From positions 1 to 52,880 of the forward strand of contig CALVHR010000014.1 of assembly GCA_944328495.1 (NCBI GenBank): a stretch of DNA of 52,880 bases, in the 5' to 3' direction. Under the pieces are notes generated by a model. The model did not search any database and was not told the origin of the DNA. It saw only the letters and a program-made list of their open reading frames with translations. The translations under genes and the position numbers were made by a program. Positions 11,155 through 28,898 of this stretch are shown here, piece by piece (within the stretch, counting starts at the first letter, position 1; every line of letters begins with the position of its first letter). The stretch is from an uncultured Clostridia bacterium. Lineage in GTDB: Bacteria > Bacillota > Clostridia > Christensenellales > Borkfalkiaceae.

Positions 11155-11216
11155 AGATCCCCCTATGCTTTTTTCAAAACACACAAAATAAATTTTCCCA
11201 CCATCTCTTCATCTCC

Positions 11217-14590: not shown

Positions 14591-14646
14591 TTTTTCCTCC
14601 TCTTTATTTCCAAATTTGTTTTTACGATCCGTCCGTCACTTCGTTT

Positions 14647-15549
14647 TTATTTGTGGTCGATAAACAGATTCCCGTCTTGATCGAAGCCCGCATCCGCGAT
14701 GCACACCACACGGCTGCCCTTCGGTTCGTTATAGTCCGCATGAATATGAAACGCACATTTAAGCTTCCCGTCTTTTGCCGTAAAAAAGGAATTGTGCCCC
14801 GGACCCGACATCTCGTTTTCCACATAGGCAAGAATGGGATTTTTTTCACTCTTGCGGTACGGCCCGTCCGCCCGCTCCGCTACCGCAAACCCGACCGCAT
14901 ATTTCAGGCTCGCATAATAGTTTGCCGAATAGGTCAGATAATACTTTCCGTTGTGCTTTAAAACGAACGGTCCTTCGTTCCACTGCCATTCCTTGTTCTG
15001 CGACGTTTCCCACTCGCAATCCGGCGTTGAGATCAACTTATATTCGCCGATCGTCTTCGTAAGATCGTCGTCCAAACGAATGCACATCGTCTGGCTGGTG
15101 TGCACACCGTTCACAATGTTGGTAGGACAATCCATCGAAAAAAACAGATAATTTTTTCCGTCGTCGTCCCGGAAACAGTGCGCATCGATGGTCGATTTGC
15201 CGTCTACCGCCAAAAGCGGCTGCGAAAACGCGTCTCGAAACGGACCTTCGGGAGTATCGGATATCGCCACACCGATTCGCAAAAGTTCCGAACTTTGCTC
15301 GCGCGCCGAATAATGCATGATGTATTTCCCGCGATGCTTTACCACTTCGGGCGCCCAAAAATTTTTATATCCGAAACTTTGCTCGCTCGTCAGACAATAG
15401 CCCGCGTCTCGCCAGCTTTGCAGATCGTCGGATACGTGACACTTGAAACCGGGCACCTGCCCCGGCGTCGTCGCATACATGTAATACTTATCTCCGTCCC
15501 TGAGTATGTACGGATCGGCTCCCGGAATCCCCGTGTTCAAATAATGCAA
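14647..15549 (-). CDS. Cytosolic GH43 glycosidase
   Basis: A 300-residue protein without a signal peptide, close to a bare GH43 propeller. GADPYIL gives catalytic base Asp12, STIDAHCF gives the pKa-modulating Asp near 121, and WNEGPF gives the acid Glu near 192. The start is TTG, supported by GGAGG seven bases upstream; no ATG fits. It is first in the polysaccharide operon, immediately ahead of the binding protein, so it probably cleaves imported arabino- or xylo-oligosaccharides. It is clearly related to the GH43 lipoprotein at 9646 but lacks its C-terminal domain. Confidence 0.88.
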   Translation of the reverse strand: MHYLNTGIPGADPYILRDGDKYYMYATTPGQVPGFKCHVSDDLQSWRDAGYCLTSEQSFGYKNFWAPEVVKHRGKYIMHYSAREQSSELLRIGVAISDTPEGPFRDAFSQPLLAVDGKSTIDAHCFRDDDGKNYLFFSMDCPTNIVNGVHTSQTMCIRLDDDLTKTIGEYKLISTPDCEWETSQNKEWQWNEGPFVLKHNGKYYLTYSANYYASLKYAVGFAVAERADGPYRKSEKNPILAYVENEMSGPGHNSFFTAKDGKLKCAFHIHADYNEPKGSRVVCIADAGFDQDGNLFIDHK

Positions 15550-15671: not shown

Positions 15672-15700
15672 TTGCAAAAAGCAAAATTTTTTGCTATAAT
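15672..15700 (+). promoter_or_regulatory. Promoter of the AraC-family gene, with a palindrome in its spacer
   Basis: TTGCAA (15672-15677), a 17-base spacer and TATAAT (15695-15700). The spacer contains the palindrome gcaaaa-tt-ttttgc (15681-15694), a classic position for a repressor or autoregulator. The -10 box ends seven bases before the ATG, so the transcript would start at or next to the start codon. Confidence 0.8.
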
Positions 15701-15707
15701 AAAAAAT

Positions 15708-16505
15708 ATGGAAAATTCTGCCGAAAAATTGAACTTTAACGTACTGCCTCACTTCCTGACCGCAGGCATCCGACAATTTCTGCCGGGCGAAAGTCATATC
15801 TCCCGAATGGTCGAAAATCGCTCTATCCTCATCATATTGCGAAAAGGAATACTCCGCTTTTCCGAAAACGGCGTAAAATGCGAAGTGCGGCCCGGCGAAT
15901 ATTACATCCAGCGGCCGCACAATTTTCAGGACGGTCCCGTCCCGAGCGATTCTCCCAATTACTTTTACATCAGCTTTACGGGCGCAGCATACGGAACGGA
16001 CGGAACTCTGCCCATTCGCGGAAATTATGACCCCGCCCGCATCAATCCGCTCATCGACGCCATCGGCGAACTCAGCCTCACGGCCTCCGCCCTCGAATAC
16101 GAATCCCTGCTGTATTCCCTGCTCACCGAGCTGTACAAATGCCAGCACACAGACACAGCCGCGCAGAAAATCCATTCCTATATCATAGCGCACTATACGG
16201 AGCCCATAACCATCGCAGATATCGAAAATACCGTATATCTGTCCAAAAATCAAATCATCAATCTCTTCCGCGAGGCATACGGCCTCCCGCCGCATAAATA
16301 CCTGACCGAATACCGCATGGTCAAGGCGGGCGATCTGATCGCTTTTACCGATCTTCCGTTTACGCGTATCTGCAATATGGTCGGCATCGAGGATTATTCC
16401 GTCTTTTATCGCGCTTTTTTGAACAAATTTAAAATGTCCCCTAAGGAATACCGCGACTCCTTCATCGCGGACGTCCCGCTCATACAGAGTTTTCCCCGTC
16501 CGTAA
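15708..16505 (+). CDS. AraC-family transcriptional regulator
   Basis: A 265-residue regulator. Residues about 10-130 look like the cupin sugar-sensing domain (VRPGEYYIQRPH). Residues about 165-260 are the double helix-turn-helix (ITIADIENTVYLSKNQIINLFREAYG and FTRICNMVGIEDYSVFYRAFLNKFKMSPKEYR). It is divergent from the polysaccharide operon and probably activates it in response to a sugar; control of the sugar-acid operon is also possible. The frame can be read from a TTG at 15672, but that TTG lies in the -35 box, so the ATG at 15708 is the start. No ribosome binding site is possible on a transcript from the visible promoter. Confidence 0.9.
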   Translation: MENSAEKLNFNVLPHFLTAGIRQFLPGESHISRMVENRSILIILRKGILRFSENGVKCEVRPGEYYIQRPHNFQDGPVPSDSPNYFYISFTGAAYGTDGTLPIRGNYDPARINPLIDAIGELSLTASALEYESLLYSLLTELYKCQHTDTAAQKIHSYIIAHYTEPITIADIENTVYLSKNQIINLFREAYGLPPHKYLTEYRMVKAGDLIAFTDLPFTRICNMVGIEDYSVFYRAFLNKFKMSPKEYRDSFIADVPLIQSFPRP

Positions 16506-16530: not shown

Positions 16531-17562
16531 TCAGCGGCACACCCTTCCGCCGTCTCCGCCCCGCAAGAGCGCCTGCACCGAATCGAGATCTGCCTGCATG
16601 AAATCACCGTAATGCGTATATTTGAGTGCCGACGCTGCGGCGGCAAAATCCACGCTCTCCTGCGCCCCCATATTGTGCCGCAGCGCATAAATAAGGGCAC
16701 CCGCAAAGCAATCGCCGACACCGATCCTGTCCACGATATCGCTTATTTCATACATCTTGCTCATGTACGGTTTTGCATCTCCGCGCACGCAAAGGATTCC
16801 GCCCCACGCATTGCGGTCCGCATTTTCGCTGCGGCGCAATCCCGAAGCAATATACGAAATCCCCGGATACGCATCAAACATCTTATCGCACATCTCAACA
16901 AACTGCTCCGCATAGGGCAGTTTGTTTTTCTTTTCGTCCTGCGCATACCCCAAGCAGCGGCGATGATCGTCCACACCTGCAAAAACTACGTCGGCGCGCG
17001 ACAAAAACATCGGAATGACTTCTTCCGCCGTCCTGCCCCAACGCCAGAGTTTGCTGCGATAATTGACATCGAACGAAACGCGTACACCCGCCGCGCGGCA
17101 ATGATCCGCGGCACACAGGCTTTGCGCGCATAGCGCCTCCGTAAGAGCGGGCGTGATGCCGGTCACATGAAACCAGTCGCAATCCGTAAGCGCCTTTTTC
17201 CAATCGATCGAATCTTTTTTCAAACAGGCAAACGCACTGCCGTCGCGATCGTACAAAACTTTGGAAGGGCGCATGTTTGAACCCGTTTCGGTAAAATATA
17301 CGCCCATCCTCCCTTCCGTAAACAGGATTTTGCCCGTACCGACCCCGCAAGCGGCCAGTTCGGCAGCCGCGGTTCGGCCCCAATCATTTTCGGGAAGCGC
17401 AGTGACAAACTCCACGTCATCCCCGAAAAGCGCATTGAGCACCGCCACGTTGGCTTCGGCTCCGCCGAAGGTAACTCGCAATGAAGGCGCCCTGTATAAC
17501 AACTCTTTCCCGGGCGGCGACAGACGCATCATCAATTCACCGAATGCTGTCAGCTTTTTCAT
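16531..17562 (-). CDS. kdgK: PfkB-family sugar kinase, 2-dehydro-3-deoxygluconokinase-like
   Basis: A 343-residue ribokinase-fold kinase. The start ATG at 17562 is chosen over an upstream in-frame codon because AGGGAGG lies six bases before it. FGGAEANVAV (32-41) is the substrate region, and the C-terminal signature DRIGVGDCFAG holds the catalytic base Asp284 (family consensus GAGD, here GVGD). Similarity is best to 2-keto-3-deoxygluconate kinases. With the KDPG-type aldolase and the IlvD dehydratase of the same operon it would complete an Entner-Doudoroff-like lower branch: 2-keto-3-deoxy acid to its phosphate, then pyruvate and a triose phosphate. It is the last gene of the eleven-gene operon. 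The sugar stereochemistry is unknown. Confidence 0.8.
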   Translation of the reverse strand: MKKLTAFGELMMRLSPPGKELLYRAPSLRVTFGGAEANVAVLNALFGDDVEFVTALPENDWGRTAAAELAACGVGTGKILFTEGRMGVYFTETGSNMRPSKVLYDRDGSAFACLKKDSIDWKKALTDCDWFHVTGITPALTEALCAQSLCAADHCRAAGVRVSFDVNYRSKLWRWGRTAEEVIPMFLSRADVVFAGVDDHRRCLGYAQDEKKNKLPYAEQFVEMCDKMFDAYPGISYIASGLRRSENADRNAWGGILCVRGDAKPYMSKMYEISDIVDRIGVGDCFAGALIYALRHNMGAQESVDFAAAASALKYTHYGDFMQADLDSVQALLRGGDGGRVCR

Positions 17563-17588
17563 ACGCTTCCTCCCTTGATCCGTGAGCG

Positions 17589-18845
17589 TCACGACATATA
17601 TTTGTCGCGGAACGCAATCAATGCCTTTTTAAAGCATTCCATCGGCACGCGCGCACTTCCCGCGCCGATCAGCCCGCCGTTGTGATTGAACATCCCGCCG
17701 TGAATTTCGGGCGCGATCCCCGTCTTTAAAACCTTGCGGATATCGATGCCCACGGGCGTAAAATCAAAATCCAGATTGGGCACGGGGTAATTCGGGTTTT
17801 TCGCAATGCTGATCTGCTCCATTTCCCGCGTCAGGTTGATCGCGTCGCGCAGTTTCATGCCGCGCAAGGCGCAGACGATCGGGCTCGCCGCCGCCGCCAT
17901 ACCTCCCAACCCCGCACATTCCACGACACAGCTGTCGCCGATCCACGGAAGCTGATCTTTTTCGGTGTATTTGGATGATGTGTAGCGCCCCTTCATCATC
18001 GGCGCGGGCGCCGTAAACCATTGCCCGGGAAGTCCCGCGACTTTAATGCCGAATTCTTTTGCGTTGCCGCCGAATGCGGTCACCATCGTCGAATATTCGA
18101 TCCCCTCTGCCGAAAGCATTGCCGCCTTGCTCGCGCCCTGACCGTAGCAATGGAAAAACCGCGGCGTCTGCACGACATAATCGACAACTTTCATGATCTG
18201 TTCTTTCGGATAATCGGCACGGAACAGATCGGGAAGAATCTGTTTATCAAACAAAAGATCCGCCGCGGTCTGCCTCGTATGATGCTCGTCGCCCATCTGC
18301 AACGCCTCGGCAAGAATGGGCTTGATCGCAAGCCCCCCGCGCTTTTTCAAAACATCGCGCAGAATCGGGAACAGCTCTTCGCGCATATACCGCAGATTTT
18401 CCGCAATCTCGGGCGAATACAGTCCCCAGCCGCAGAAGCCTCCCTGAAACGGTCCCTCCGCAGGGAATGTCGCCGCTCGCTTGCCCGTACGTCTGTCCTC
18501 GATCACGATCATGGCGACCGATTTCGTGATAATGCCCGTACCGGCGCCGACCGTATTGTGATTGTGCGCGCTGTCCATCTCGATCGCGCCCGATTCCAAA
18601 AGTTTCAACGCCTCTTCTTCGGTCTTTGCCCAACCCTCAAACAACACGCCGCTGACCATGCCGCGCCGGTGCAGCATGCACATATCCCGAAACTCCACCG
18701 GGGGCCCCGAATGCAGGATCATATGATCTTTCAAGCCTTCCACGCACTCCCCCGCAGGCAGTATATCTACCCATACCGGGTCTGCATCGATCACGCAATG
18801 CACCGCCGCATCGTTCGCTCTCTCGATACGTTCTTTGATATCCAT
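17589..18845 (-). CDS. DUF1116 protein (YlbE/AllG-like), subunit partner of FdrA
   Basis: A 418-residue protein of the DUF1116 family, to which E. coli YlbE/AllG belongs. That family works with FdrA/AllF and AllH in oxamate carbamoyltransferase. Visible family features are the N-terminal IKERIERANDAAVHCVIDADPVWVDILPA, HNHNTVGAGTGIIT, EGPFQGGFCGWG, GDEHHTR and the C-terminal HGGMFNHNGGLIGAGSAR. There is no signal peptide or membrane segment. AGGAGG lies ten bases before the ATG, at the end of the 58-residue gene just upstream. Its presence in a sugar-acid operon rather than an allantoin operon suggests a substrate other than oxalurate. Confidence 0.85.
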   Translation of the reverse strand: MDIKERIERANDAAVHCVIDADPVWVDILPAGECVEGLKDHMILHSGPPVEFRDMCMLHRRGMVSGVLFEGWAKTEEEALKLLESGAIEMDSAHNHNTVGAGTGIITKSVAMIVIEDRRTGKRAATFPAEGPFQGGFCGWGLYSPEIAENLRYMREELFPILRDVLKKRGGLAIKPILAEALQMGDEHHTRQTAADLLFDKQILPDLFRADYPKEQIMKVVDYVVQTPRFFHCYGQGASKAAMLSAEGIEYSTMVTAFGGNAKEFGIKVAGLPGQWFTAPAPMMKGRYTSSKYTEKDQLPWIGDSCVVECAGLGGMAAAASPIVCALRGMKLRDAINLTREMEQISIAKNPNYPVPNLDFDFTPVGIDIRKVLKTGIAPEIHGGMFNHNGGLIGAGSARVPMECFKKALIAFRDKYMS

Positions 18846-18859
18846 ATAAGGTCTTCCTC

Positions 18860-19036
18860 CTACATTAAATCATCCAAAATATCCGCAACGTCCTTGTCCG
18901 GTTCCACAGGCGGACGCCAGTCCAACTGCACAGCTTTGGCGCCCTGCGTCGCCACCGCATCGTAAAACGCCGCAAGTCCGATGTTGATCACTCGCAGTTT
19001 TTCTTCTTTGCAAGTCTTTTCGTTTTGCGCATTCAT
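18860..19036 (-). CDS. Small FdrA-associated protein (58 aa), free-standing segment
   Basis: A 58-residue frame. It starts with an ATG that overlaps the fdrA stop codon as ATGA, has AGGAGG eight bases upstream inside the fdrA end, and stops 14 bases before the DUF1116 start. The core reads VINIGLAAFYDAVATQGAKA followed by VQLDWRPP. From memory, a segment of this kind (NVGL-x-F-x-x-L-x-x-QG-x-x-VVQVDWRPPAGG) occurs at the C-terminus of longer FdrA proteins. The FdrA here is 503 residues, shorter than the roughly 555 of E. coli, so a domain usually fused seems to be a separate subunit. The ending EPDKDVADILDDLM matches the usual leucine-rich tail. Function is inferred from position only. Confidence 0.75.
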   Translation of the reverse strand: MNAQNEKTCKEEKLRVINIGLAAFYDAVATQGAKAVQLDWRPPVEPDKDVADILDDLM

Positions 19037-20544
19037 GCACTCAACCTCCTTAAAATCGCCGCGGCAAGACAGGCGCTCTCTTTATTGCTCCCCGTCACAA
19101 TCACACCCGCCGCGCGAAGCTCTTCGGCGATGCGCTTGACATTTTGCGGATCGCCTTCCGCCCCGCAGATATTTGCAATCACCGTAAGCTTTCCGCCCCG
19201 CCTCGAAATTGCCTCACGGCAAAGTTTTGCCGCTTCGTCCGCAGGATGAGCGTGTACCCCCGGGCCCGTGATCACGTCAAACACCGCTACCGCCGTGCGC
19301 TCGTCTTCCAATACTTTTTGCAGTTTGGCATTGCGGAGCGCAGGTTCAAATACGGGATGCGGCGCGCACTGCGTATATTCCTCCGCCCCGAGATCCAGCA
19401 CTGCATGCCCCGCAGTATCCGCATTTCCCTTTTCCGTTCCGGGTACGTTGCCGCAAAACTTCACGAAAGGCAGCTCCTGCTTCCAGTACAGCACGCTCTC
19501 TTCCGCAAACGTTCCGCCGCAATACAGCGCTCGCAGATATTTCTGCTCCTTCCCATACTTTTTACACTCGGTTTCCGCAAGGGCGTCGATCTCGCCTTGT
19601 GTCATGATACTCGCAGCTTTACCGCCCGCAAGGCGCACCGCGATCAGCGCAGCGTCCGCCAAAAATTCCGCATAATGCACGCGGTGCGCAGCAAACATTT
19701 CCTTGTCCGCGCCCAAAAATACGGCTACAACGGGCTTTTTGCACCCGTCCGCACGGGTAAGTACCTTTTCCATGACCTGCCTGTCCGCAACCTTGGAAAC
19801 AAGGACGATCACGTCTGTCTCCTCGTCGTTTTCCAGCTTTTCCAAAGCATGCAACATGGTCAGACCGCCCACTTCGCGGCTCAGATCACGCCCGCCCGTG
19901 CCGATCAGAGAAGACACGCCCGCACCGCAGCGCTCGATGACGCAGGACACTTCCTGTGCGCCGCTCCCCGACGCCCCTATAATTCCGATCCTGCCTTTGC
20001 GCACGACACTCCCCGCGGCGAGCGCCACACCCTTCAATATCCCGACTCCGCAATCAGGTCCCATGACAAGGCGTCCGCATTCGATGCCGAGTTTTTTGAT
20101 CCGCACTTCCTCCTCGATCGGTACGTTATCCGAAAAAATAAATACGTCCAGCCCCTTTCGAATGGCCTTTTCCGCTTCCGCCGCCGCATATTTTCCGGGC
20201 AGCGAGATCTGTACGAGATCGTACGGATCTTCCTGCAGATCGATCTCATCAAGGCTGTGGTAAACGCGATTGTCATCCGCTTTATGGTTCAGACAGTCTT
20301 CCAGGAGCTGCAATGCCCGCTCGGCCGTGTCGCCGTCCTTTGCGGTAACGGCAAGCACCAGATCGTTCGGTCCCGCCGACGACGGCACGGAATAACCGAG
20401 CATATTCAGCACTTCTAAATTGGCGGGCGTCGCCATCTGCGCTTCCGCGTTTTCTGCTCCCGCTTCCGCGACAACCCGTTCTCCGACCGACATCAGGGTC
20501 ACGGAATCAACATAACGGTTGTGCAATATCTTGATTTTTTTCAT
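19033..20544 (-). CDS. fdrA: FdrA-family protein (AllF-like, acyl-CoA-synthetase fold)
   Basis: A 503-residue protein of the FdrA family, related to the alpha subunit of succinyl-CoA synthetase. Visible are KIKILHNRYVDSVTLM at the start, IFSDNVPIEEEVRIK (136-150), LVMGPDCGVGIL (159-170), the Rossmann loop RIGIIGASGSGAQEV (185-199) and a second domain with DVITGPGVHAHPADEAA. In E. coli the homologue AllF, with AllG and AllH, moves a carbamoyl group to phosphate. Here it sits between a flavoprotein gene and the DUF1116 gene with four-base overlaps. By analogy it may phosphorolyse an acyl or carbamoyl compound made from a sugar acid, giving an acyl phosphate for the acetate-kinase-like enzyme at the head of the operon. 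Confidence 0.85.
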   Translation of the reverse strand: MKKIKILHNRYVDSVTLMSVGERVVAEAGAENAEAQMATPANLEVLNMLGYSVPSSAGPNDLVLAVTAKDGDTAERALQLLEDCLNHKADDNRVYHSLDEIDLQEDPYDLVQISLPGKYAAAEAEKAIRKGLDVFIFSDNVPIEEEVRIKKLGIECGRLVMGPDCGVGILKGVALAAGSVVRKGRIGIIGASGSGAQEVSCVIERCGAGVSSLIGTGGRDLSREVGGLTMLHALEKLENDEETDVIVLVSKVADRQVMEKVLTRADGCKKPVVAVFLGADKEMFAAHRVHYAEFLADAALIAVRLAGGKAASIMTQGEIDALAETECKKYGKEQKYLRALYCGGTFAEESVLYWKQELPFVKFCGNVPGTEKGNADTAGHAVLDLGAEEYTQCAPHPVFEPALRNAKLQKVLEDERTAVAVFDVITGPGVHAHPADEAAKLCREAISRRGGKLTVIANICGAEGDPQNVKRIAEELRAAGVIVTGSNKESACLAAAILRRLSA

Positions 20545-22082
20545 ATTCCCTCCGTAAACTCGCGCCGCACCGCTTTGCCCTGCGCGATCACTCTGTATCT
20601 TTTTTCTGCGCGGTTTTCAAAATCACTGCGCCGATGACAGCCGACACTCTCTTCGCGCGCAAGCGCACTCAGTGCCGCAAGGCGCGCAGTCGTCAGTTCA
20701 CCCCGATAACGCAACAAATCTTCTTCGTTTTCTCCGACTTGCAACAACGTCTCTTCGGCATAATCGGCAAGGTCTTTCAACCCTTTTGCATTGCGCACGA
20801 CGCCGAGCGCATCGCCCGCTTTCTCTCGTAAAAGCACCCGATCCGCACCGACACCGCCTGCCGCATTTGTCAAATGCTCGCTCAAAGGCTGTCTGCGTGG
20901 ATTCTGCAAAGCATATTTCGCCGCGCTCTCTCCCGCTGCGGCACCGAACACCAATGTTTCCAGTCCCGCATTCCCGCCGATACGGTTTGCGCCGTGAATG
21001 CCGCCCGCCGCCTCTCCGCAGGCGAACAAGCCCAAAACATTGGTCGCGCAAGAGACATCGATCTTTGCGCCGCCGAGTGTCGTGTGCGGCGCAGGAGCGA
21101 CCTCAAACGGCTCCGACGCAATGTCAATGCCGACATCTTTGTATCGGCGCACATATGATCCGTACACTTCTTCCAGGCGCTTTCTGCCCACGCCGCTCGC
21201 GTCGAACCATACGCCTCCGTGCGGCGTTTGGCGGTGCGCGGCGATCTCTGCATGGATCGCCGCCGCAAGCACGTCTTTTTCCGATCGCTCGTCGCAGAAT
21301 CGTTCCCCGAGACCGTTGCGCAGTACCGCGCCTTCATGAAAAAGAGTCGTGATCATGCCCTTGCCGCGCACGGGCGGCGGCCATACCGCGGCGCATGGCT
21401 CGAATTGAATGAATTCCAGATCGACAAGCTCCGCACCTGCTTCGCTCAACAGTCCGATGCTCTCCCCGTTTTCATGCGGGTTGGTCGTGAACGGAAACAG
21501 TCCTGCAAACCCGCCCCAGGCGCACACAACCGCCGACGCACCGATCAAAACAGTTTTATCCTCCGCTTTTGCAATCGCACCGCAAATTTTACCGTCCTTT
21601 GTGCATAGCCGCAAAGCGCGGCCGCGCAAAATGAGAGTATTCCCGCGGCGATACAGGCGCTCTTCAAGCTTTGCCATAACGGCAACGCCCGCCTCGTTTC
21701 CGACGCTGACCACGCGCGGATAACTGCATCCCACCGCGCGGATGAGCTGAATGCTTCCGTCTGCGTTACGGTTGGGCGCGATCCCCAATTCGGCGAGAAA
21801 ATCAAACGCGGACTGCGCCCCGTTGCAGAGCATGCGCACCAGCGCTTTATCGTTTTGCAGGCATCCGCTCCTGCGCGTATCCTGATAGAAGCATTCCGCA
21901 CTGTCGCCTGCCGCAAGCGGCACGTTGAAACCGTGAATGAACGGCGAATTGCCTTTATCTGCGCCCAAGACGACCGTATGAAGGCCGCGCGCCGAACATT
22001 CCTCCGCCGCGCGCAGCCCCGCAACGCCCCTGCCTATCACAAGAACATCGCAGCCGATCGTTTCCGCAACAGAAATGCTCAT
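20541..22082 (-). CDS. FAD-binding oxidoreductase, fumarate reductase/L-aspartate oxidase family
   Basis: A 513-residue soluble flavoprotein. Residues 12-26 hold the dinucleotide motif VLVIGRGVAGLRAAE. The capping domain includes VWFDASGVG and EPFEVAPAPHTTLGGAKID, which corresponds to the HxTxGG substrate segment. NVLGLFACGEAAGGIHGANRIGGNAGLETLVFG is the C-terminal FAD motif. The tail SVGCHRRSDFEN matches the helical-domain motif SRGAHYRxDFP with changes, so the substrate probably differs from fumarate or aspartate. No heme- or iron-sulfur-subunit gene is next to it. It overlaps both neighbours by four bases. A role in oxidising a sugar-acid intermediate before the FdrA step is inferred from context. 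Confidence 0.85.
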   Translation of the reverse strand: MSISVAETIGCDVLVIGRGVAGLRAAEECSARGLHTVVLGADKGNSPFIHGFNVPLAAGDSAECFYQDTRRSGCLQNDKALVRMLCNGAQSAFDFLAELGIAPNRNADGSIQLIRAVGCSYPRVVSVGNEAGVAVMAKLEERLYRRGNTLILRGRALRLCTKDGKICGAIAKAEDKTVLIGASAVVCAWGGFAGLFPFTTNPHENGESIGLLSEAGAELVDLEFIQFEPCAAVWPPPVRGKGMITTLFHEGAVLRNGLGERFCDERSEKDVLAAAIHAEIAAHRQTPHGGVWFDASGVGRKRLEEVYGSYVRRYKDVGIDIASEPFEVAPAPHTTLGGAKIDVSCATNVLGLFACGEAAGGIHGANRIGGNAGLETLVFGAAAGESAAKYALQNPRRQPLSEHLTNAAGGVGADRVLLREKAGDALGVVRNAKGLKDLADYAEETLLQVGENEEDLLRYRGELTTARLAALSALAREESVGCHRRSDFENRAEKRYRVIAQGKAVRREFTEGI

Positions 22083-23743
22083 TCCCAGATCCCGCCCTTC
22101 GCCATCGAACCGACGTTTTTGACAAACAGACGCAAAAACCGCGGATATTCATCTTCTTTGAATTTCCAGCTGAATTCTTTTCTGCGCTTTTCCATTTCCG
22201 CTTCCGAAATATTCACGGAAATTTTGCGTGCGAGAATATCGATTTCGATCTCATCTCCGTTTTTGATCAGACCGAGCGGACCTTTGAGCGCCGCTTCGGG
22301 CGAAACATAGCCGACGGAAAGTCCCGACGTGCCGCCCGAAAAACGGCCGTCCGTGATGATCGCACAGGAATTGTATAATTCATGTCTGCCTTTGAGCTCT
22401 TCCTGGAACGTAAATGCCGTTGTACCGAATCTGCCTTTCAACCCCATGAACCGCAAAATGAGCGCATCCCCTTCGTGTACCTTTCCGCCGCGAAGAGCCT
22501 GCAAGCCCTCTTCCAGCGAATCGAACACTTTCGCCTTCCCCTTGAACCGCATCAGCTGTTCGGGAACCGCCGCAATTTTAATGATCGATCCCTCGGGCGC
22601 CAGATTACCGTACAACACGCCGATGCCCGCCTCACGCATGACAGGATTTTCCAGCGTGTGAATCACATCCGCATTGTAACACTTCGCATTTTCCACATTT
22701 TCGCGCAACGTTTTGCCTGTAACGGTAAGCACATTTCCGTCCAGCTTCGGCATCAGGTTTTTCAAAAGCAAAGGCATTCCGCCCGCAAGATCGAAATCTT
22801 TCAATGAATAAGGACCGCTCGGCGCCAAGTGAGACAAAAGCGGGATCTCATTGGAATATTCGTCAAAATATTTCCACCAGGGAAGATCGTATCCTGCCTC
22901 GTGCGCGATCGCGGGAATGTGCAGGATCAGATTGGACGATGCGGCAACTGCCATATCTACCTTGATCGCGTTCTTGATCGCTTCTACCGTCATGACTTTG
23001 CGCGCCGTGATATCTTCTTCCACCAACCGCACGATCTGCTTGCCCGCTTCGTACGAAAGATGACGGATCTGCGAACTCACCGCCGACATGGATGAGTTGC
23101 CGGGAAGAGTCATGCCCAGCGCCTCCGCGATCATGCACATGCTGTTGGCCGTCGTCATCGACGTGCATGCCCCGCAGATACCCCATGAACAGGCGATCAA
23201 ATCGTCGTATTCCTGCGGATCCATTTTTCCGGCCTTCATCGTGCCCACTTTGTCTTGCGCGTGGATATGTACGACTTCTTTGCCACGGCACTGTCCCAAA
23301 GGCATATATCCGCCCGTGACCAAAATCGTCGGGATGTCCAGACGCGCTGCCGCCATCAGGTGACCGGGAACAATGGAATCGCAAGTCGAGAGCATGACCA
23401 TGCCGTCAAAAAAGTTGCCCTCCACCGTTATTTCCACCTGGTCCGCAATGGAATTGCGGCTGGGTATCTCTATGTACCTGGGATCTTTCAATACCATCCC
23501 GTCGCAAATGCCTGTCGTCATGACTTCGACGGGAAGCCCGCCCGCTTCGCGTACGCCCTGCTTAACGCGTTCCGCCAGCTGATTCAGATGAATGTGCCCC
23601 GGGTTATATTCGTTCCAGGAATTCACGATCCCGATCAGAGGACGCTTCAGCTCCTCTTCCGTGTATCCCATACCGCGCATCAAGCCGCGGCGGCATTCCG
23701 ACGCTTCGCCGAATTCCCATTGACTCCGAAGTTGCTTTTTCAT
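22079..23743 (-). CDS. IlvD/Edd-family sugar-acid dehydratase
   Basis: A 554-residue dehydratase of the dihydroxy-acid/sugar-acid type that removes water from an aldonate to give a 2-keto-3-deoxy acid. Family motifs are GICDGM (78-83), LSTCDSIVPG (119-127), SWGICGACTSMTTANSM (186-202) and the C-terminal ITDGRFSGGTSG. Two expected residues differ: the first cluster cysteine (NPCN-type motif) is Gly49 in YNPGHIHL, and the lysine after CD, carbamylated in structures of the family, is Ser123. The remaining Cys121 and Cys193 are present. Its place beside kdgK- and eda-like genes argues for a sugar acid rather than branched-chain amino-acid synthesis. GGAGAGAT precedes the ATG. Confidence 0.85.
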   Translation of the reverse strand: MKKQLRSQWEFGEASECRRGLMRGMGYTEEELKRPLIGIVNSWNEYNPGHIHLNQLAERVKQGVREAGGLPVEVMTTGICDGMVLKDPRYIEIPSRNSIADQVEITVEGNFFDGMVMLSTCDSIVPGHLMAAARLDIPTILVTGGYMPLGQCRGKEVVHIHAQDKVGTMKAGKMDPQEYDDLIACSWGICGACTSMTTANSMCMIAEALGMTLPGNSSMSAVSSQIRHLSYEAGKQIVRLVEEDITARKVMTVEAIKNAIKVDMAVAASSNLILHIPAIAHEAGYDLPWWKYFDEYSNEIPLLSHLAPSGPYSLKDFDLAGGMPLLLKNLMPKLDGNVLTVTGKTLRENVENAKCYNADVIHTLENPVMREAGIGVLYGNLAPEGSIIKIAAVPEQLMRFKGKAKVFDSLEEGLQALRGGKVHEGDALILRFMGLKGRFGTTAFTFQEELKGRHELYNSCAIITDGRFSGGTSGLSVGYVSPEAALKGPLGLIKNGDEIEIDILARKISVNISEAEMEKRRKEFSWKFKEDEYPRFLRLFVKNVGSMAKGGIWE

Positions 23744-23763
23744 TTTTATCTCTCCATACTTTT

Positions 23764-24555
23764 TTATATTTCAAAGTCGAGCATGTAATCGATTGCGCCG
23801 TCGATGGATTGACCGCCGTCGACGGTGAACGTCTGCCCTACGATAAAGGAAGATTTTTCATCGTCTGCCAAAAACAGCATGAGCGGCACGATATCTTCGA
23901 CCTTGCCAAGCCTTCCCGCAGGGATTTTGCGCAAAAATGCATTCATTTCTTTTTGATCGTAACGTGTCGTCGCCTTCGTCATGATAAACCCGGGCGCAAT
24001 GCAATTGACATTGATGCCGTACTTGATCGCTTCCACACCGAGAGCCTTTGTAAACATGATCAGTCCCGCTTTTGCGGCGCAATACGGCAACGTTTTCCTG
24101 CGTACGTATGTGACTAAACCGTGCACGGAACTCACATTGATGATTTTACCGCCTTCTCCGCGCGCGATCATATCTTGCATTGCGATGCGCGAGCAATATG
24201 CCGCCGCGCTCAGATTCAAGCGGATCTGACTGTCCCAATATTCAACCGGCATTTTATCAAAACCGCCCTGCGGCATCTTCAACGCTCCGCCCGCATTATT
24301 GACAAGCACGTCGATCCTGCCGAAATCAGCGATAAAATCGCGGACCATACGCTCACAATCCACACTCTCCGATACATCAGCACGATATACCTGTGCTCGT
24401 GCACCAAGCGCTCGCACTTGCTTTGCGGTCTCTTCCGCGCCGTCCGGCGTTTTGCAATAATTGATGCCTACATCGTACCCCGCTTTTGCAAATCCGATCG
24501 CCGCCGCCGCACCAATCCCGTGCGAAGCTCCTGTGATCAAAACCGTCTTTTTCAT
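23764..24555 (-). CDS. Short-chain dehydrogenase/reductase
   Basis: A 263-residue classical SDR. TGASHGIG (8-15) binds the nucleotide, NNAGG (86-90) is the structural motif, and Ser143, Tyr158 and Lys162 form the catalytic set (VSS, YCAAK). NYCK at the end of the second strand suggests some NADP preference, which is uncertain. It probably oxidises or reduces a hydroxyl/keto group of a sugar acid or a 2-keto-3-deoxy acid, as SDRs do in non-phosphorylating rhamnose and fucose pathways. It lies 20 bases before the dehydratase gene and 12 after the MBL gene. An AAGGAG site fixes the start. Confidence 0.9.
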   Translation of the reverse strand: MKKTVLITGASHGIGAAAAIGFAKAGYDVGINYCKTPDGAEETAKQVRALGARAQVYRADVSESVDCERMVRDFIADFGRIDVLVNNAGGALKMPQGGFDKMPVEYWDSQIRLNLSAAAYCSRIAMQDMIARGEGGKIINVSSVHGLVTYVRRKTLPYCAAKAGLIMFTKALGVEAIKYGINVNCIAPGFIMTKATTRYDQKEMNAFLRKIPAGRLGKVEDIVPLMLFLADDEKSSFIVGQTFTVDGGQSIDGAIDYMLDFEI

Positions 24556-24567
24556 TTTTCTATCTCC

Positions 24568-25437
24568 TTATTTCTCGCTGTCCGCATACTGAAAATGCGC
24601 GTCCACCGTGTACAATGCCAAAAATAAATACTGCGGCATCTTCCCGCCCGTACGACGAATCAACTCTTTCGCCGCCGAAACATTGTCCGTTTCCCCCAAG
24701 CTTCTGAGTATATGGTCATATTCCTCCGTGACAGCATAACAGCGTTCGACCAGTTCCGCACACGCCGCGCGTCCCTGTGCAAATTCGCCCGACACCCGAA
24801 AGTCGTGTCCCGCTACAATACGCTCTGCCCCGACCGAAACTACCCGCTCCAACGTTTCACGATACACACGAAGATCAGTGTACAGCGCGATGCCCTGTGT
24901 GTTTGTGCCGCTTCCCTGCAACGAATCGCCCGTAATCAGTGTGCCGCTCGCCTCGTCCAACCAGCAAACACAATCACTGTCATGTCCCGCCGCAGGCACA
25001 ACTTTCAGTCCGGCAAAACGATCGCCGTCCTGCAAGAGGATGTCCGCCGCAACGCCCTGCAAACCATATGAAGGCGGTGCACTGTACTTAGGATACACGC
25101 TTCGGATACGAATGTTGTATGCGAGCGGATCGGCAAGTTTTACAGCCTGCTTCTGCGTCGCGACGATCCGCATTTTCGGATACAGCTGCCGAAGAAGGTG
25201 ATGTCCTCCGACATGATCGCCGTGCGTATGCGTACACAAAAGATATCGGATGCCCGTTTTCTTTGCACCGAGTTCGTCAAGGGCGGGAAGAATTTCCTCC
25301 CGAACGGTCTTATCATCGGCTCCGCTGTCGATCAAAACAAGTCCTTCTTTTGTCTGCAACAAAGTCACGGCGCTCGTTACCTCGCCAAAAGGCGTTTTCA
25401 AAACATAAATATCGTCGGTTATGGGATTAAATTTCAT
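24568..25437 (-). CDS. Metallo-beta-lactamase-fold hydrolase
   Basis: A 289-residue protein with the zinc motif THTHGDHVGGHH (69-80), VPAAGHDSDC and ITGDSLQG: a dinuclear-metal hydrolase of the MBL superfamily. The start ATG at 25437 is chosen because it overlaps the aldolase stop codon as ATGA; a frame open to 25596 lies inside the aldolase gene. The residues fit a soluble enzyme acting on a lactone, thioester or similar ester. Opening a sugar-acid lactone is a reasonable guess in this operon, but no specific family was recognised. Confidence 0.85.
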   Translation of the reverse strand: MKFNPITDDIYVLKTPFGEVTSAVTLLQTKEGLVLIDSGADDKTVREEILPALDELGAKKTGIRYLLCTHTHGDHVGGHHLLRQLYPKMRIVATQKQAVKLADPLAYNIRIRSVYPKYSAPPSYGLQGVAADILLQDGDRFAGLKVVPAAGHDSDCVCWLDEASGTLITGDSLQGSGTNTQGIALYTDLRVYRETLERVVSVGAERIVAGHDFRVSGEFAQGRAACAELVERCYAVTEEYDHILRSLGETDNVSAAKELIRRTGGKMPQYLFLALYTVDAHFQYADSEK

Positions 25438-26048
25438 TTTGACCTCTGCAATAATCCTTTCAATCGACGCGCCGACGCGTATATGTCTTCCCCGTCCTTC
25501 GCAAGAGAAGCGCCGATCCCGACACCCGCAGCGCCTGCTTCCAGCCAGCTGAGCGCATTTTCCGTATTGACACCCCCGACCGCAATGATCTTGCAATCCG
25601 GAAGCGGCGAATGCACGGCGCGCACAAACCCGACCCCGTACGCGGACGCAGGGAATAATTTGACCGCCTTCGCACCCGCAGCCCGGGCGCGCACGATCTC
25701 CGAAACCGTAGCAACGCCAGGAAGTACGGGAATGCCCCGCGCCGTCAGATAGCGCACAACTTCTTCATCAAGATTGGGCATGACGGCAAATTGCGCCCCC
25801 GCTTCCGCCGCCAAAACAGCGCGTTCCATATCGACGACCGTACCTGCCCCGATCAGCGCATTCGGATACATTCCCTGTAATTTCCGCATTACGCCAAGAG
25901 CCTCGGGCGTGGTCATGGATATTTCCAAAAGACGTACCCCGCCTTCCAGAACAGCCGCCGCAAATTTTTCCGCTTTTTCCGCGCTCGTTTCGCGCACGAT
26001 CGCGATCAGCCGTTCATTGTCCAATAACTCATAAAATTCTTTGTTCAT
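25434..26048 (-). CDS. eda: KDPG/KHG aldolase family protein
   Basis: A 204-residue class I aldolase. VKLFPAS places the Schiff-base Lys at 130; Glu42 (LEIS) is the acid/base; GAGTV (68-72) and IAVGGVN form the substrate loops. It cleaves 2-keto-3-deoxy-6-phosphogluconate or a relative to pyruvate and glyceraldehyde 3-phosphate. The phosphate-loop VGGVN differs slightly from the TGG of E. coli Eda, and the R of LR/T after the Glu is Thr, so the exact substrate is open. The second ATG (26048) is taken as start because GGGG lies at a proper distance from it; the first, two codons upstream, is too close. The gene overlaps the DUF2877 gene by 20 bases. Confidence 0.85.
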   Translation of the reverse strand: MNKEFYELLDNERLIAIVRETSAEKAEKFAAAVLEGGVRLLEISMTTPEALGVMRKLQGMYPNALIGAGTVVDMERAVLAAEAGAQFAVMPNLDEEVVRYLTARGIPVLPGVATVSEIVRARAAGAKAVKLFPASAYGVGFVRAVHSPLPDCKIIAVGGVNTENALSWLEAGAAGVGIGASLAKDGEDIYASARRLKGLLQRSK

Positions 26049-26757
26049 ATTCATCCCCGTTTTCCTTTAAATATATAAAAAAAGCCGCCATCCCGGCCAA
26101 AACCGCCTGTCCCGATTCCGAACCGTATCCGCTCAGTTTTTGCGCCGCCGAAAAGGGGTCTGCACCAAAGACTTCTTCGATCGCCGAAAATGTTTCGCCC
26201 GTCGCCGCCGCCTCTAAAAACGCCGCCGAAACTGCGCTCGTTTTATGCAGTCGGGCAAGTACTTCATGCGCGAGAGGGAATTCTTTTCCCGTTTTGCGCG
26301 CGGCATACATTACGCCTACCAACGCATCATCCCCCGACGGCGTTAGCCCTCGTCCCCGACCGATCAGCGCATCGGCAAGTGCCTGTGCACCTTCTTTCAG
26401 ACGCACGCCAATGGTTTCGGAAAATATTTCTGCTTCGCTATGCAACGCCGAACACACCGCGGTTACAGTCTTTTCCTCATCAAGCAGCTCATATTCGGCA
26501 ATTTGCTCTTTTTCCAACTTCCAGTCTGCTTTGCCGTTTTTCCAAACAATTTCTCTTGCACACATCGATACACTGCCCTGCGGCCGCACATTTGCACAAA
26601 TCCCGAACGGAAGGCTCGGCCCTCGCTCATAAATTGCAATGACCTGCCCGCCTTCGCAAACGATGTATGTACAATTTTTTACCGGAAATGCCGTACCGCA
26701 CACTTCTCCGCCTTGCAGACGTTTGTATGCGAGTTTTCCCGCTTTTGCAACGATCAT
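26029..26757 (-). CDS. DUF2877 protein (AllH-like)
   Basis: A 242-residue protein whose motif GRGRGLTPSGDDAL (133-146) is the hallmark of DUF2877, the family of E. coli YlbF/AllH. AllH is the third component of oxamate carbamoyltransferase, with FdrA/AllF and DUF1116/AllG. Here it is separated from those two by five genes but belongs to the same transcript. The ATG overlaps the stop of the acetate-kinase-like gene as ATGA, so the two are likely made together. There is no signal peptide. The biochemical job of the family is poorly defined; the association is the main evidence. Confidence 0.85.
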   Translation of the reverse strand: MIVAKAGKLAYKRLQGGEVCGTAFPVKNCTYIVCEGGQVIAIYERGPSLPFGICANVRPQGSVSMCAREIVWKNGKADWKLEKEQIAEYELLDEEKTVTAVCSALHSEAEIFSETIGVRLKEGAQALADALIGRGRGLTPSGDDALVGVMYAARKTGKEFPLAHEVLARLHKTSAVSAAFLEAAATGETFSAIEEVFGADPFSAAQKLSGYGSESGQAVLAGMAAFFIYLKENGDEYEQRIL

Positions 26758-27899
26758 AATTTTAAAAACGATACCACCTTCTGTGCCACGATCCGCTCTT
26801 CGTCGGCAGGCACGACTAATACCTTGACAGGCGAACAGTCCGTCGAAATCACTTCGGAATTTTCCGCATTTTTCTTTTCATCCAAATTTGCGCCGATATG
26901 CGCGACGGCGTGCACGATCTTTTCGCGAATCGAAGGAGAATTTTCGCCGATTCCGCCGGAAAAAGTGATCGCATCCAGTCCGCCCAATTCCGCGTAAAAA
27001 GCTCCGATATAACGGACAACGGAAGCGACAAACGCATCTACCGCAAGCCTGGCGCGCGGCGTTTCATCCGCCAAAATATCGCGCATGTCTCCGTTTATGC
27101 CCGCAATGCCGCGAAGCCCTCCGTTTACGGAGAATCCTTTTTCGATTTCCGATTGCGTCAGCCCGCATTGTTGAAGCCATGGCACGATCGCACAGTCGGT
27201 ATCGCCCGCGCGGTATAGTTGCATCACCCCGGACTGCGGACTGAATCCGAAACTTATATCCAGGCTCTTGCCGTCTGAAACGGCGCAGACCGAACTGCTT
27301 CCGCCCAAATGACAGCAGATGACCTTTTGATACCCGCGCGATACGGCGTACGAGGATGCATATTCGTGCGAAGCGCCGTGAAAGCCGTTTTTTCGTACCC
27401 CATATTTTTCGTACCATTCATACGGAAGCCCGTAAATGCGGTTATGCAGCGGTATCGTGCGATGAAACCCCGTTTCAAAACTTCCAACCATCGGAACTTG
27501 CGGCATCGCCGCCCTGCACTGTTCGATCGCATCCGCATACGGCGGATTATGCGCAGGACAGACCCCGGAAAGTGCACGCATATCCGCAATGACCTCGTCG
27601 GTGAGTTCCGCAACCCCCTCTTCTCGCAAAGACAGCACCGTCTTGAACCCCACCGCCGCAACGTCTCGCACGTTTGCCCTTTCCAAAAAGAATCGTATCG
27701 CGTCCCCGTACGTGCGGACGGAAGCTTCCTGCCCGCTTTGCGATTTTCCGTTCTCTTTCACGACATACTCGCACGGCTTTTCGCCTCCGATTCCCGCAAA
27801 CCGCATCGATATGCACTCACGGAGACCGGGCAACAAATATTGCTTGATCTTGCAGGACGTACTGCCTACGTTCATGATTAAAATGCTGCATTCTTGCAT
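26754..27899 (-). CDS. Divergent acetate-kinase-family acyl-phosphate kinase
   Basis: A 381-residue ASKHA-fold kinase clearly related to acetate/butyrate/propionate kinases: NVGSTSCKIK (10-19), AHNPPY (116-121), FETGFHRTIP (141-150), NGFHGASHEY (171-180), CHLGG (196-200), SPQSGV, YRAGDTD (229-235) and FSGGIGEN. The nucleotide-side and His motifs are kept. The carboxylate-binding motif GHRxVHGG is replaced by GFKTVLSL (Phe85, Lys86 for His and the key Arg), the catalytic Asp of FDTAFH is Glu142, and the Asn of CHLGNG is Gly. It probably transfers phosphate between ADP and an acyl phosphate other than acetyl. In allantoin operons carbamate kinase holds this place. It is the first gene of the operon; GGAGGAAG precedes the ATG. 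Confidence 0.85.
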   Translation of the reverse strand: MQECSILIMNVGSTSCKIKQYLLPGLRECISMRFAGIGGEKPCEYVVKENGKSQSGQEASVRTYGDAIRFFLERANVRDVAAVGFKTVLSLREEGVAELTDEVIADMRALSGVCPAHNPPYADAIEQCRAAMPQVPMVGSFETGFHRTIPLHNRIYGLPYEWYEKYGVRKNGFHGASHEYASSYAVSRGYQKVICCHLGGSSSVCAVSDGKSLDISFGFSPQSGVMQLYRAGDTDCAIVPWLQQCGLTQSEIEKGFSVNGGLRGIAGINGDMRDILADETPRARLAVDAFVASVVRYIGAFYAELGGLDAITFSGGIGENSPSIREKIVHAVAHIGANLDEKKNAENSEVISTDCSPVKVLVVPADEERIVAQKVVSFLKL

Positions 27900-27918: not shown

Positions 27919-27948
27919 ATTATATCGGCGCAATGCTCAAAAAGTCAA
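27919..27948 (-). promoter_or_regulatory. Promoter of the eleven-gene sugar-acid/FdrA operon
   Basis: On the minus strand TTGACT (27943-27948), an 18-base spacer and TATAAT (27919-27924), 19 bases before the ATG of the acetate-kinase-like gene, with GGAGG between them. Confidence 0.85.
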
Positions 27949-28073: not shown

Positions 28074-28898
28074 ATGGATTACGTACTCAACAACAAAGAT
28101 CTTCTTATCCGCGCATCGTCGTACGGGGCGGAGCTTAAAAGCATTGCTTTCCGCGGCCGCGAATACCTGTGGCAGGGCGAAAAACCTTGGGCTTCCAGTT
28201 CGCCCGTACTGTTTCCGTTCGCGGGCAGAAGGAAAAATTTTTGCTACGACTATTGCGGAAAGACTTATCCCATGCCCCTCAACGGCTTTGCCAAAGACAT
28301 GCCCTTTCGGTGCATTGGCGGGGAAAGCGAGCTCGTGTTCGAACTTTGCGACGACAAAAAAACGCAAACGATGTATCCGTTTGCGTTTTGCCTGCGCATT
28401 GCTTATTCCATCGGCACCGATACCGTTTTTGCCGCATTTTCTCTCGAAAACAAAGACGAAAAGCCGATGCCTTATATGTGGGGACTGCACCCGGGCTTTA
28501 TCATCGAAGAGCCGTCCGATTGGCAACTGCGATTTGACAAAACGCCCGCCGAATGTTTCCTCGGCCCCGATATGCTGCTCACGGGCGAAGAGCGCCCGTT
28601 TGCGCGCTTATACCGCTTCGATGAAACGCTCGAACATACGCGCATCGTCAAAGATTACGGAAAGAGCGCCTTCCTTTACAATGGCGGTACCGGTCGCTCC
28701 GTAACCATACAAAGCACCGATCCCGACGTTTTGGCAATCTGGCGCCCGCCCATCGATCATTTCCCGCTCGTATCTCTCGAACCCTGGTGCGGCATATCCG
28801 ATCGAAAAGAATGTATGCCGATCATGCAAAATCCGTACGTCCGCATCCTCACGCCGCATACAACCGCAAAGACGGTTTGGACTTTTAAACTCACATGA
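28074..28898 (+). CDS. Aldose 1-epimerase family protein (LacX-like)
   Basis: A 274-residue galactose-mutarotase-fold protein. It shows the LacX-type start MDYVLNNKDLLIRASSYGAELKS, PVLFPFAGR (44-52), NGFAKDMPF, the HPGF segment (about 139-142) and EPWCGISDR near the end, which carries the catalytic Glu. It interconverts alpha and beta anomers of a free sugar, easing its entry into catabolism. It is divergent from the sugar-acid operon and shares its upstream region, so the two are probably co-regulated. The start codon is fixed by homology with the family N-terminus. No ribosome binding site precedes it, in line with a leaderless mRNA. Confidence 0.88.
   Translation: MDYVLNNKDLLIRASSYGAELKSIAFRGREYLWQGEKPWASSSPVLFPFAGRRKNFCYDYCGKTYPMPLNGFAKDMPFRCIGGESELVFELCDDKKTQTMYPFAFCLRIAYSIGTDTVFAAFSLENKDEKPMPYMWGLHPGFIIEEPSDWQLRFDKTPAECFLGPDMLLTGEERPFARLYRFDETLEHTRIVKDYGKSAFLYNGGTGRSVTIQSTDPDVLAIWRPPIDHFPLVSLEPWCGISDRKECMPIMQNPYVRILTPHTTAKTVWTFKLT

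Follow-up and report, generated by a model that had tools for sequence, protein, structure and literature searches.

A variant of the oxamate carbamoyltransferase complex in a widespread sugar-acid gene set: a candidate for phosphate-dependent cleavage of oxidised sugar acids

Introduction

What do the three subunit families of oxamate carbamoyltransferase (OXTCase) do in an operon of sugar-acid enzymes? The question is raised by positions 16531-27899 of a 52,880-nucleotide contig (CALVHR010000014.1, assembly GCA_944328495.1) from an uncultured Clostridia bacterium; the whole stretch is referred to as the window. According to passages of PMC11326118, E. coli AllF (FdrA), AllG (DUF1116) and AllH (DUF2877) interconvert oxalurate plus phosphate and oxamate plus carbamoyl phosphate. 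The window instead places these families beside a dehydratase, dehydrogenases and an acetate-kinase-family protein, which we call AckL. An earlier note on this DNA, made from its letters alone, proposed that the complex phosphorolyses an oxidised sugar-acid derivative, perhaps a diketo acid, and that the acetate-kinase homologue recovers ATP from the acyl phosphate. Our analysis indicates that the gene set appears to be a variant of the known OXTCase within a widespread sugar-degrading gene set, in which the AllFGH complex probably uses phosphate to split an oxidised sugar acid and a specialised acetate-kinase relative makes ATP. In the titles and abstract openings of the open-access literature searched, neither a sugar-acid role of DUF1116 or FdrA nor an acylpyruvate phosphorolysis is described.

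Results

A conserved gene set surrounds a distinct AllG clade

The operon consists of eleven tightly packed open reading frames (ORFs) on the minus strand, with the same coordinates as in the earlier note. Adjacent genes share 4-26 bases or have 12-20 bases between them, confirming that most of them overlap or nearly touch. In order of transcription they encode AckL, AllH, a homologue of 2-keto-3-deoxy-6-phosphogluconate (KDPG) aldolase, a metallo-beta-lactamase (MBL)-fold protein, a short-chain dehydrogenase/reductase (SDR), an IlvD/Edd dehydratase, a flavoprotein, AllF, a 58-amino-acid (aa) ORF, AllG and a PfkB kinase. Pfam searches bear out the enzyme families that had been named and, together with PDB matches, place AllF, AllG and AllH in this one operon. 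A promoter-like match (27948-27919) sits immediately 5' of the first operon ATG; across the region such sites are not in excess (11 versus 7.9, standard deviation 3.1, in shuffled sequence).

When a collection of species genomes was scanned with the window AllG, 20 loci matched at 61-92% identity. They come from Clostridia, Verrucomicrobiota and Lentisphaerota and include the named strain Oligosphaera ethanolica DSM 24202. Matches to the AllG family occur in 6 of 201 relatives; at class level 24 of 391 genomes match, at phylum level 60 of 398, and in the phylum of another cluster-bearing genome, G579, 29 of 387. Neighbourhoods were retrieved for part of these matches and, after removal of three duplicates (L015, L032 and L083), 92 loci including the two of E. 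coli were labelled by profile searches. The AllG tree holds 90 of 91 rows; a short AllG (L178) was left out. In it, the window AllG falls within a clade of 42 rows (support 100/98) that contains neither E. coli AllG nor YahG. In a quick AllF tree, the starred sets with the window draw 20 of 20 and 25 of 28 rows from the loci of this AllG clade, and no grouping with E. coli AllF is seen. The earlier note had named a tight grouping with characterised OXTCases and a neighbourhood conserved nowhere else as grounds for giving up its proposal; we find separate AllG and AllF groups and a neighbourhood conserved across phyla. A single-genome oddity is therefore rejected, and we are confident that a conserved variant system exists.

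To compare gene content we counted linked genes in the 42 clade loci and in 46 other loci; many contigs are short, and presence is a lower bound. Four families are linked in clade loci only: SDR (31 of 42 versus 0 of 46), flavoprotein (29 versus 0), IlvD (28 versus 0) and MBL protein (27 versus 0). A lactonase-like gene is linked jointly with SDR, IlvD and flavoprotein in 26 of the 42 loci. An aldose 1-epimerase (mutarotase) homologue shows the same restriction (11 versus 0). AckL is linked in 20 clade loci and 2 others, while carbamate kinase is linked in none of the clade loci and in 13 of the others; no carbamate kinase scores above the model cut-off in the window's own genome, whose assembly is about 91% complete. 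In gene content, the acetate-kinase homologue stands in place of carbamate kinase, as had been claimed. AllF (26 of 42 versus 42 of 46) and AllH (17 versus 32) occur on both sides of the comparison. The 2-keto-3-deoxygluconate (KDG)-kinase-like and KDPG-aldolase-like (Eda) genes to which the earlier note also drew attention are present in the operon but are not core, being linked in 11 and 16 clade loci, respectively.

Several loci deserve separate mention. In L013 (8965-13279) and L085 (8781-13539), the two AckL loci outside the clade, the AllG is of a third type, which falls with the carbamate-kinase loci in the tree, is AckL-linked and is intermediate in its diagnostic residues; neither IlvD nor flavoprotein was found in the retrieved stretch of either locus. 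L184 and L194 each have paired AllG genes side by side, adjoining a YahJ-like gene. The AllG omitted from the tree, L178 of genome G1283, is short and diverged (240 bits, 314 aa) and lies beside YahJ- and AllB-like proteins.

Nine AllG positions differ together from the other AllG proteins

At eight positions (G62, G102, G136, G139, Q192, H232, G260 and W301 in window numbering) the clade is invariant, in 30 of 30 rows of a first group and in 12 of 12 rows from genomes lacking AllF (AllG-only); G383 is kept in 29 of 30 and 12 of 12. The first group includes L158 and L159 of genome G844, in which AllF was not found, and L033 and L086, which are without linked AllF at the locus level. In the other 48 rows these nine positions are, in order, mostly A, M, K, R, N, L, R, D and T. 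Additionally, 36 further positions are at least 90% identical in each of the three groups. Nine positions changed together on 36 kept ones suggest a changed substrate site on a retained frame.

This pattern bears on the possibility that the complex is still a carbamoyl-transfer enzyme, acting on a ureido or N-carbamoyl compound, with AckL as a diverged carbamoyl phosphate kinase. The presence of all three OXTCase families and the 36 shared positions are in line with such a role, as are the AllB- and AllC-like neighbours in L020 and a weak AllB-like neighbour in L160. Apart from these two, however, no AllB/C/D/E- or YahJ-like genes were found in the clade loci (allantoin genes were not searched over the window's own genome). 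The missing carbamate kinase, the separate AllG clade and the nine altered residues further weaken a carbamoyl-transfer role, which we judge distinctly unlikely.

The 58-aa ORF matches a stretch of about 45 residues found at the C-terminus of E. coli AllF and at the N-terminus of YahG. Whether free or fused to AllF or AllG, this connector turns up in all labelled AllF-containing loci, and the 12 AllG-only loci all lack it. Thus it travels with AllF, and it may join the AllF and AllG subunits.

AckL is a separate clade of the acetate kinase family

A tree of 23 AckL rows and 27 AckA/TdcD rows separates AckL as a clade of its own with 100/100 support; one member, L227 of G579, is unlinked to a cluster and sits on a long branch. 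Three substitutions, R91K, D148E and N211G, are found in all 23 rows and a fourth, L122A, in 20 of them, while the equivalents of N7, H123, H180, R241 and E384 are kept. The numbering is that of Methanosarcina acetate kinase; R91 and D148 are presumably catalytic in acetate kinase. The smaller residue at the L122 position would fit an acyl group larger than acetyl. A housekeeping role as acetate kinase was considered for AckL and rejected, because the window's genome has a separate, ordinary AckA elsewhere (487 bits) and AckL lies in its own clade. All 20 clade loci with AckL also carry AllF; none has AckL without it.

AllG-only genomes act as natural deletions

Clade AllG without AllF (NF004760 model) was found in 12 genomes, and three AllF-bearing genomes, G578, G579 and G580, were positive in the same search. 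For 11 of the 12 the search was extended to AllH and acetate kinases, and these 11 were compared, by Fisher test, with 13 AllF genomes. AllH is absent from all 11 and present in 12 of the 13. The AckL-clade kinase is likewise found in 0 of 11 versus 13 of 13, a count that is not unbiased since the 13 genomes were mostly taken from AckL-bearing clusters. Two AllG-only genomes, G748 and G913, have an extra weak PF00871 match (54-56 bits) that was left unplaced. Most of the genomes are metagenome assemblies, in which an individual absence may reflect a gap, but gaps would hardly account for what is seen across 12 genomes. In four AllG-only clusters (L160, L163, L165 and L167) the flavoprotein, IlvD, SDR and MBL protein are retained with AllG. 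The AllG-only clusters, which were not available to the earlier note, point to AllG as the putative cleaving subunit.

If the AllG-only loci were decaying remnants, they would say nothing about AllG's own function. We compared L158 and L159 of G844, at about 87% DNA identity to Oligosphaera ethanolica, with L029 and with L172 of G578. Both G844 loci lack the AllF stretch that Oligosphaera has, and the ratio of nonsynonymous to synonymous substitution rates (dN/dS) of their AllG genes is 0.22 and 0.26, versus 0.05 between L028 and L029, as decay would predict. These ratios are nevertheless far below 1, the AllG frames are open and the clade-specific residues are fixed in 12 of 12 AllG-only rows. 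Furthermore, the presence of AllF on the AllG tree requires at least four changes (85 rows scored, with 15 absences, three of them by linkage and two of these without a genome search). Decay is thus an improbable account of the AllG-only loci.

The linked enzymes resemble a non-phosphorylative sugar pathway

In Route III, as outlined in parts of PMC6336799 and PMC11199699, a 1-dehydrogenase, a lactonase, a dehydratase, a 4-dehydrogenase and a diketo hydrolase yield pyruvate and glycolate or lactate. At the level of families, the five genes of L160, L163, L165 and L167 match these five steps.

Which dehydrogenase takes which step was examined in the alignments. In SDR-type 4-dehydrogenases the first carboxylate-binding Arg, Arg148 of L-KDFDH, lies three residues before the catalytic Tyr151 (PMC11199699, section 10). 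Among 33 of the 34 SDR matches (one was too short), counted on sequences, this Arg is missing from 27, including the window SDR; the six that carry it are all in L012 and L087-L089. Because the Arg is missing, the window SDR is more likely a 1-dehydrogenase. L012, L087, L088 and L089 form a branch with SDRs of another subfamily.

The flavoprotein belongs to the FrdA/NadB fold, whose enzymes dehydrogenate next to a carbonyl. In all 28 rows aligned (of 29 matches, one was too short), the equivalent of NadB His244 is Glu and that of Arg290 is Phe or Leu, while those of His351 and Arg386 are kept. On NadB numbering and site roles, one carboxylate site would be retained and the other lost along with the catalytic Arg, an arrangement that suits a monocarboxylic acid.

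In the dehydratase subfamily of these clusters, an NPGH motif stands in 28 of 28 at the place where the dihydroxy-acid dehydratase 6ovt has TPCN; two Cys are present in 28 of 28, and Gly replaces a further Cys of 6ovt in all 28. The residue replaced is a possible Fe-S ligand. For the lactonase step, L012, L087 and L088 have an Amidohydro_2-type protein instead of the MBL protein. The family of the former (PF04909) includes known lactonases, and the exchange suits both proteins as lactonases. Matches to solved structures did not decide the substrates of the SDR and the MBL protein.

A proposed pathway and its direction

We infer the following scheme, including each catalytic assignment, the direction and the sugar, from gene families and their residues. 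A neutral aldose would be oxidised at C1 by the SDR, the lactone opened by the MBL protein and the aldonate dehydrated by IlvD to a 2-keto-3-deoxyaldonate. The flavoprotein would then dehydrogenate C3-C4, giving a 2,4-diketo acid directly in its enol form; the roles of SDR and flavoprotein could be swapped, at least in one branch. Oxamate is an isostere of pyruvate, and oxalurate and acylpyruvates are alike in shape. With pyruvate in place of the leaving oxamate, the equivalent of the E. coli step would be acylpyruvate plus phosphate giving pyruvate plus acyl phosphate, and AckL would replace carbamate kinase. AllG would thus cleave the 2,4-diketo-3-deoxyaldonate, an acylpyruvate, to pyruvate and an acyl group, which AllF, the connector and AllH would pass to phosphate. 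AckL would then make the acid and ATP from ADP and the acyl phosphate; the sugar would decide whether the latter is glycoloyl-, lactoyl- or glyceroyl-phosphate. Where AllF, AllH and AckL are missing, AllG may act as a plain hydrolase.

The full mechanism, an anaerobic pathway of the Route III type with a phosphate-using last step, is in our view close to an even call. A broader formulation is more tentative and somewhat short of an even chance: AllG would serve generally to cleave N-acyl as well as C-acyl oxo-acids, its clade converting 2,4-diketo-3-deoxyaldonate and phosphate to pyruvate and acyl phosphate in a sugar pathway that is non-phosphorylative and yields one ATP through substrate-level phosphorylation, and the AllG-only lineages would hold a new type of diketo-acid hydrolase. 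The diketo-acid phosphorolysis of the earlier note persists as a prediction from genomes, one that agrees with the gene neighbourhood, with the AckL clade and with the failure to find a carbamate kinase or a diketo hydrolase. A fumarylacetoacetate hydrolase (FAH)-family protein was considered as a hidden cleaving enzyme in the window's genome and rejected, as a search of that genome found none; in all, 20 of 24 genomes searched gave none.

The same enzymes could in principle run backwards, AckL spending ATP on an acyl phosphate and AllFGH joining the acyl group to an acceptor such as pyruvate as part of a biosynthetic route. Passages of PMC11326118 describe OXTCase as readily reversible and report an assay in the reverse direction, but the surroundings look catabolic, with glycosidases, an ATP-binding cassette (ABC) transporter, a mutarotase and a lactonase-like protein. 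We regard this direction as very improbable.

Observations that weigh against phosphate-dependent cleavage

Several observations count against the proposed cleavage by AllFGH and AckL. With its changes at R91 and D148, AckL may be inactive as a kinase. In six clade loci AllF is present but AckL is not linked (L021, L022, L024, L030, L031 and L172); an unlinked AckL elsewhere in the genome is seen for L021 (G579) and L172 (G578) only, and the genomes behind the other four were not searched for it. The predicted AllG model (mean pLDDT, the predicted local distance difference test, 82.5) matches 3clq above noise in a fold search and no other fold was found. In L012 and L087-L089 the SDR may be a 4-dehydrogenase and the flavoprotein may have some other role. 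Among AllG-only genomes, G748 and G607 contain an FAH-family protein, L161 and L169 have no sugar-acid genes near AllG, and L170 and L171 have one or two partial matches nearby. Linked AllF is also absent from five loci outside the clade (L077, L173, L178, L192 and L195; locus level only).

Lastly, aldolases of three families (Eda, DHDPS and HpcH) occur in some clusters, and in these aldol cleavage may be the main route. More broadly, the main carbon flow could be aldol cleavage or the kinase plus KDPG-aldolase branch, leaving AllFGH and AckL to a side product, such as an aldehyde-derived acid, via an acyl-CoA or acyl phosphate made by AllF. The linkage of Eda and kinase in part of the clade, the DHDPS and HpcH aldolases in L172 and L018 and the match of AllF to succinyl-CoA-synthetase alpha chains in a solved-structure search are all compatible with this. 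On the other hand, clusters such as L160, L163 and L165 lack both kinase and Eda and still keep SDR, IlvD, flavoprotein, MBL protein and AllG. Additionally, the aldolase route (route 1) and Route III have common upstream genes in known pathways (part of PMC11199699); this sharing can explain why kinase and aldolases are optional in the clusters. We consider an aldol or kinase branch as the main flow unlikely, though the most serious of the alternatives.

Features of the operon and its surroundings

The features are collected in Table 1. For the MBL gene, ATG 25437 is a likelier start than TTG 25596; the PfkB kinase may start at ATG 17562 instead of the called start.

Table 1. Operon genes in order of transcription, with the promoter-like site and the two flanking genes (window coordinates).
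Feature	Coordinates	Strand	Matches and remarks
AckL, acetate-kinase family, separate clade; putative acyl-phosphate kinase	26754..27899	-	PF00871 (Acetate_kinase) 274 bits
AllH/DUF2877 subunit	26029..26757	-	PF11392 58 bits
KDPG/KHG (2-keto-4-hydroxyglutarate) aldolase homologue (Eda), optional branch	25434..26054	-	PF01081 139 bits
MBL-fold hydrolase, putative sugar lactonase	24568..25437	-	PF00753 (Lactamase_B)
SDR dehydrogenase, putative aldose 1-dehydrogenase	23764..24555	-	PF00106 (adh_short)/PF13561
IlvD/Edd-type dehydratase	22079..23743	-	PF00920 (ILVD_EDD) 365 bits
FrdA/NadB-like flavoprotein, putative 2-keto-3-deoxyaldonate dehydrogenase	20541..22082	-	PF00890 (FAD_binding_2) 182 bits
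AllF/FdrA subunit	19033..20544	-	PF00549 (CoA-ligase), PF02629 (CoA-binding); PDB 3dmy 207 bits
58-aa connector ORF	18860..19036	-	AllF C-terminal and YahG N-terminal stretch
AllG/DUF1116, proposed cleaving subunit	17589..18845	-	PF06545 243 bits; PDB 3clq
PfkB/KDG-kinase-like sugar-acid kinase, optional branch	16531..17592	-	PF00294 115 bits
Promoter-like site TTGACT-18-TATAAT	27919..27948	-	11/12 consensus positions; by itself no evidence of function
Aldose 1-epimerase (mutarotase) homologue, divergent, probably linked	28074..28898	+	PF01263
AraC-family regulator, convergent with operon	15672..16505	+	PF12833; 77% identical relative in G022

Beyond the AraC gene, two genes of glycoside hydrolase (GH) family 43 and an ABC sugar transporter (9646-15549) are kept in the congener G022 (L010:3-5812) at 76-91% identity. 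The neighbouring glycosidases vary between loci, being GH43 in the window, GH29 in L164, GH35 in L021 and an alpha-L-arabinofuranosidase in L085, so the neighbours point to no single sugar. Near the operon, 3340-5070 encodes a protein with relatives, 34-39% identical, inside four AllG-only loci (L160, L164, L165 and L166); the proteins of the window and L160 both receive the Pfam label DUF5696. Positions 5111-9631 encode a protein of 1506 aa that carries a CBM9 domain and six stretches of BspA-type leucine-rich repeats. On the other side, a 275-aa HNH endonuclease ORF (31775-32602) has a weak match to the IscB model (45.5 bits versus a cut-off of 175).

Discussion

If the proposed cleavage is correct, it would be a new reaction, the phosphorolysis of a C-C bond, and would add a step that yields ATP to the sugar-acid fermentation of anaerobes. 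It would give a function to proteins otherwise annotated as OXTCase subunits or acetate kinase, and it would caution against reading FdrA, DUF1116 and DUF2877 as nitrogen metabolism. The AllG-only genomes would also make the division of labour within OXTCase, left open by the 2024 gene-finding paper, directly testable.

Several components can be set beside known relatives. The window dehydratase has the ILVD_EDD domains of the IlvD/Edd family, with Gly in place of one 6ovt Cys in its subfamily. The flavoprotein type shares its fold family and the His351 and Arg386 equivalents with FrdA and NadB but, unlike these dicarboxylate enzymes, does not have both carboxylate sites and the catalytic Arg as a full set. 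AckL shares PF00871 and five retained residues with the acetate and propionate kinases AckA and TdcD, from which it differs in its separate clade, the loss of R91 and D148, N211G and, mostly, L122A.

At the level of the pathway, gene families here match the mutarotase, 1-dehydrogenase, lactonase and dehydratase of Route III, as well as the second dehydrogenation that precedes its C-C cleavage. In contrast to Route III, the window's genome has a flavoprotein besides the SDR and no FAH-type hydrolase detected, and the AllG complex with AckL is proposed for the cleavage. The closest comparison is E. coli AllF-AllG-AllH with AllK (as described in passages of PMC11326118), in which all three subunit families likewise share an operon with a kinase that uses an acyl phosphate. 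The window AllG shares 34% identity with E. coli AllG and 36% with YahG. Relative to that system, the clusters described here have separate AllG and AllF groups, nine changed AllG positions, AckL for AllK and sugar-acid genes in place of allantoin genes.

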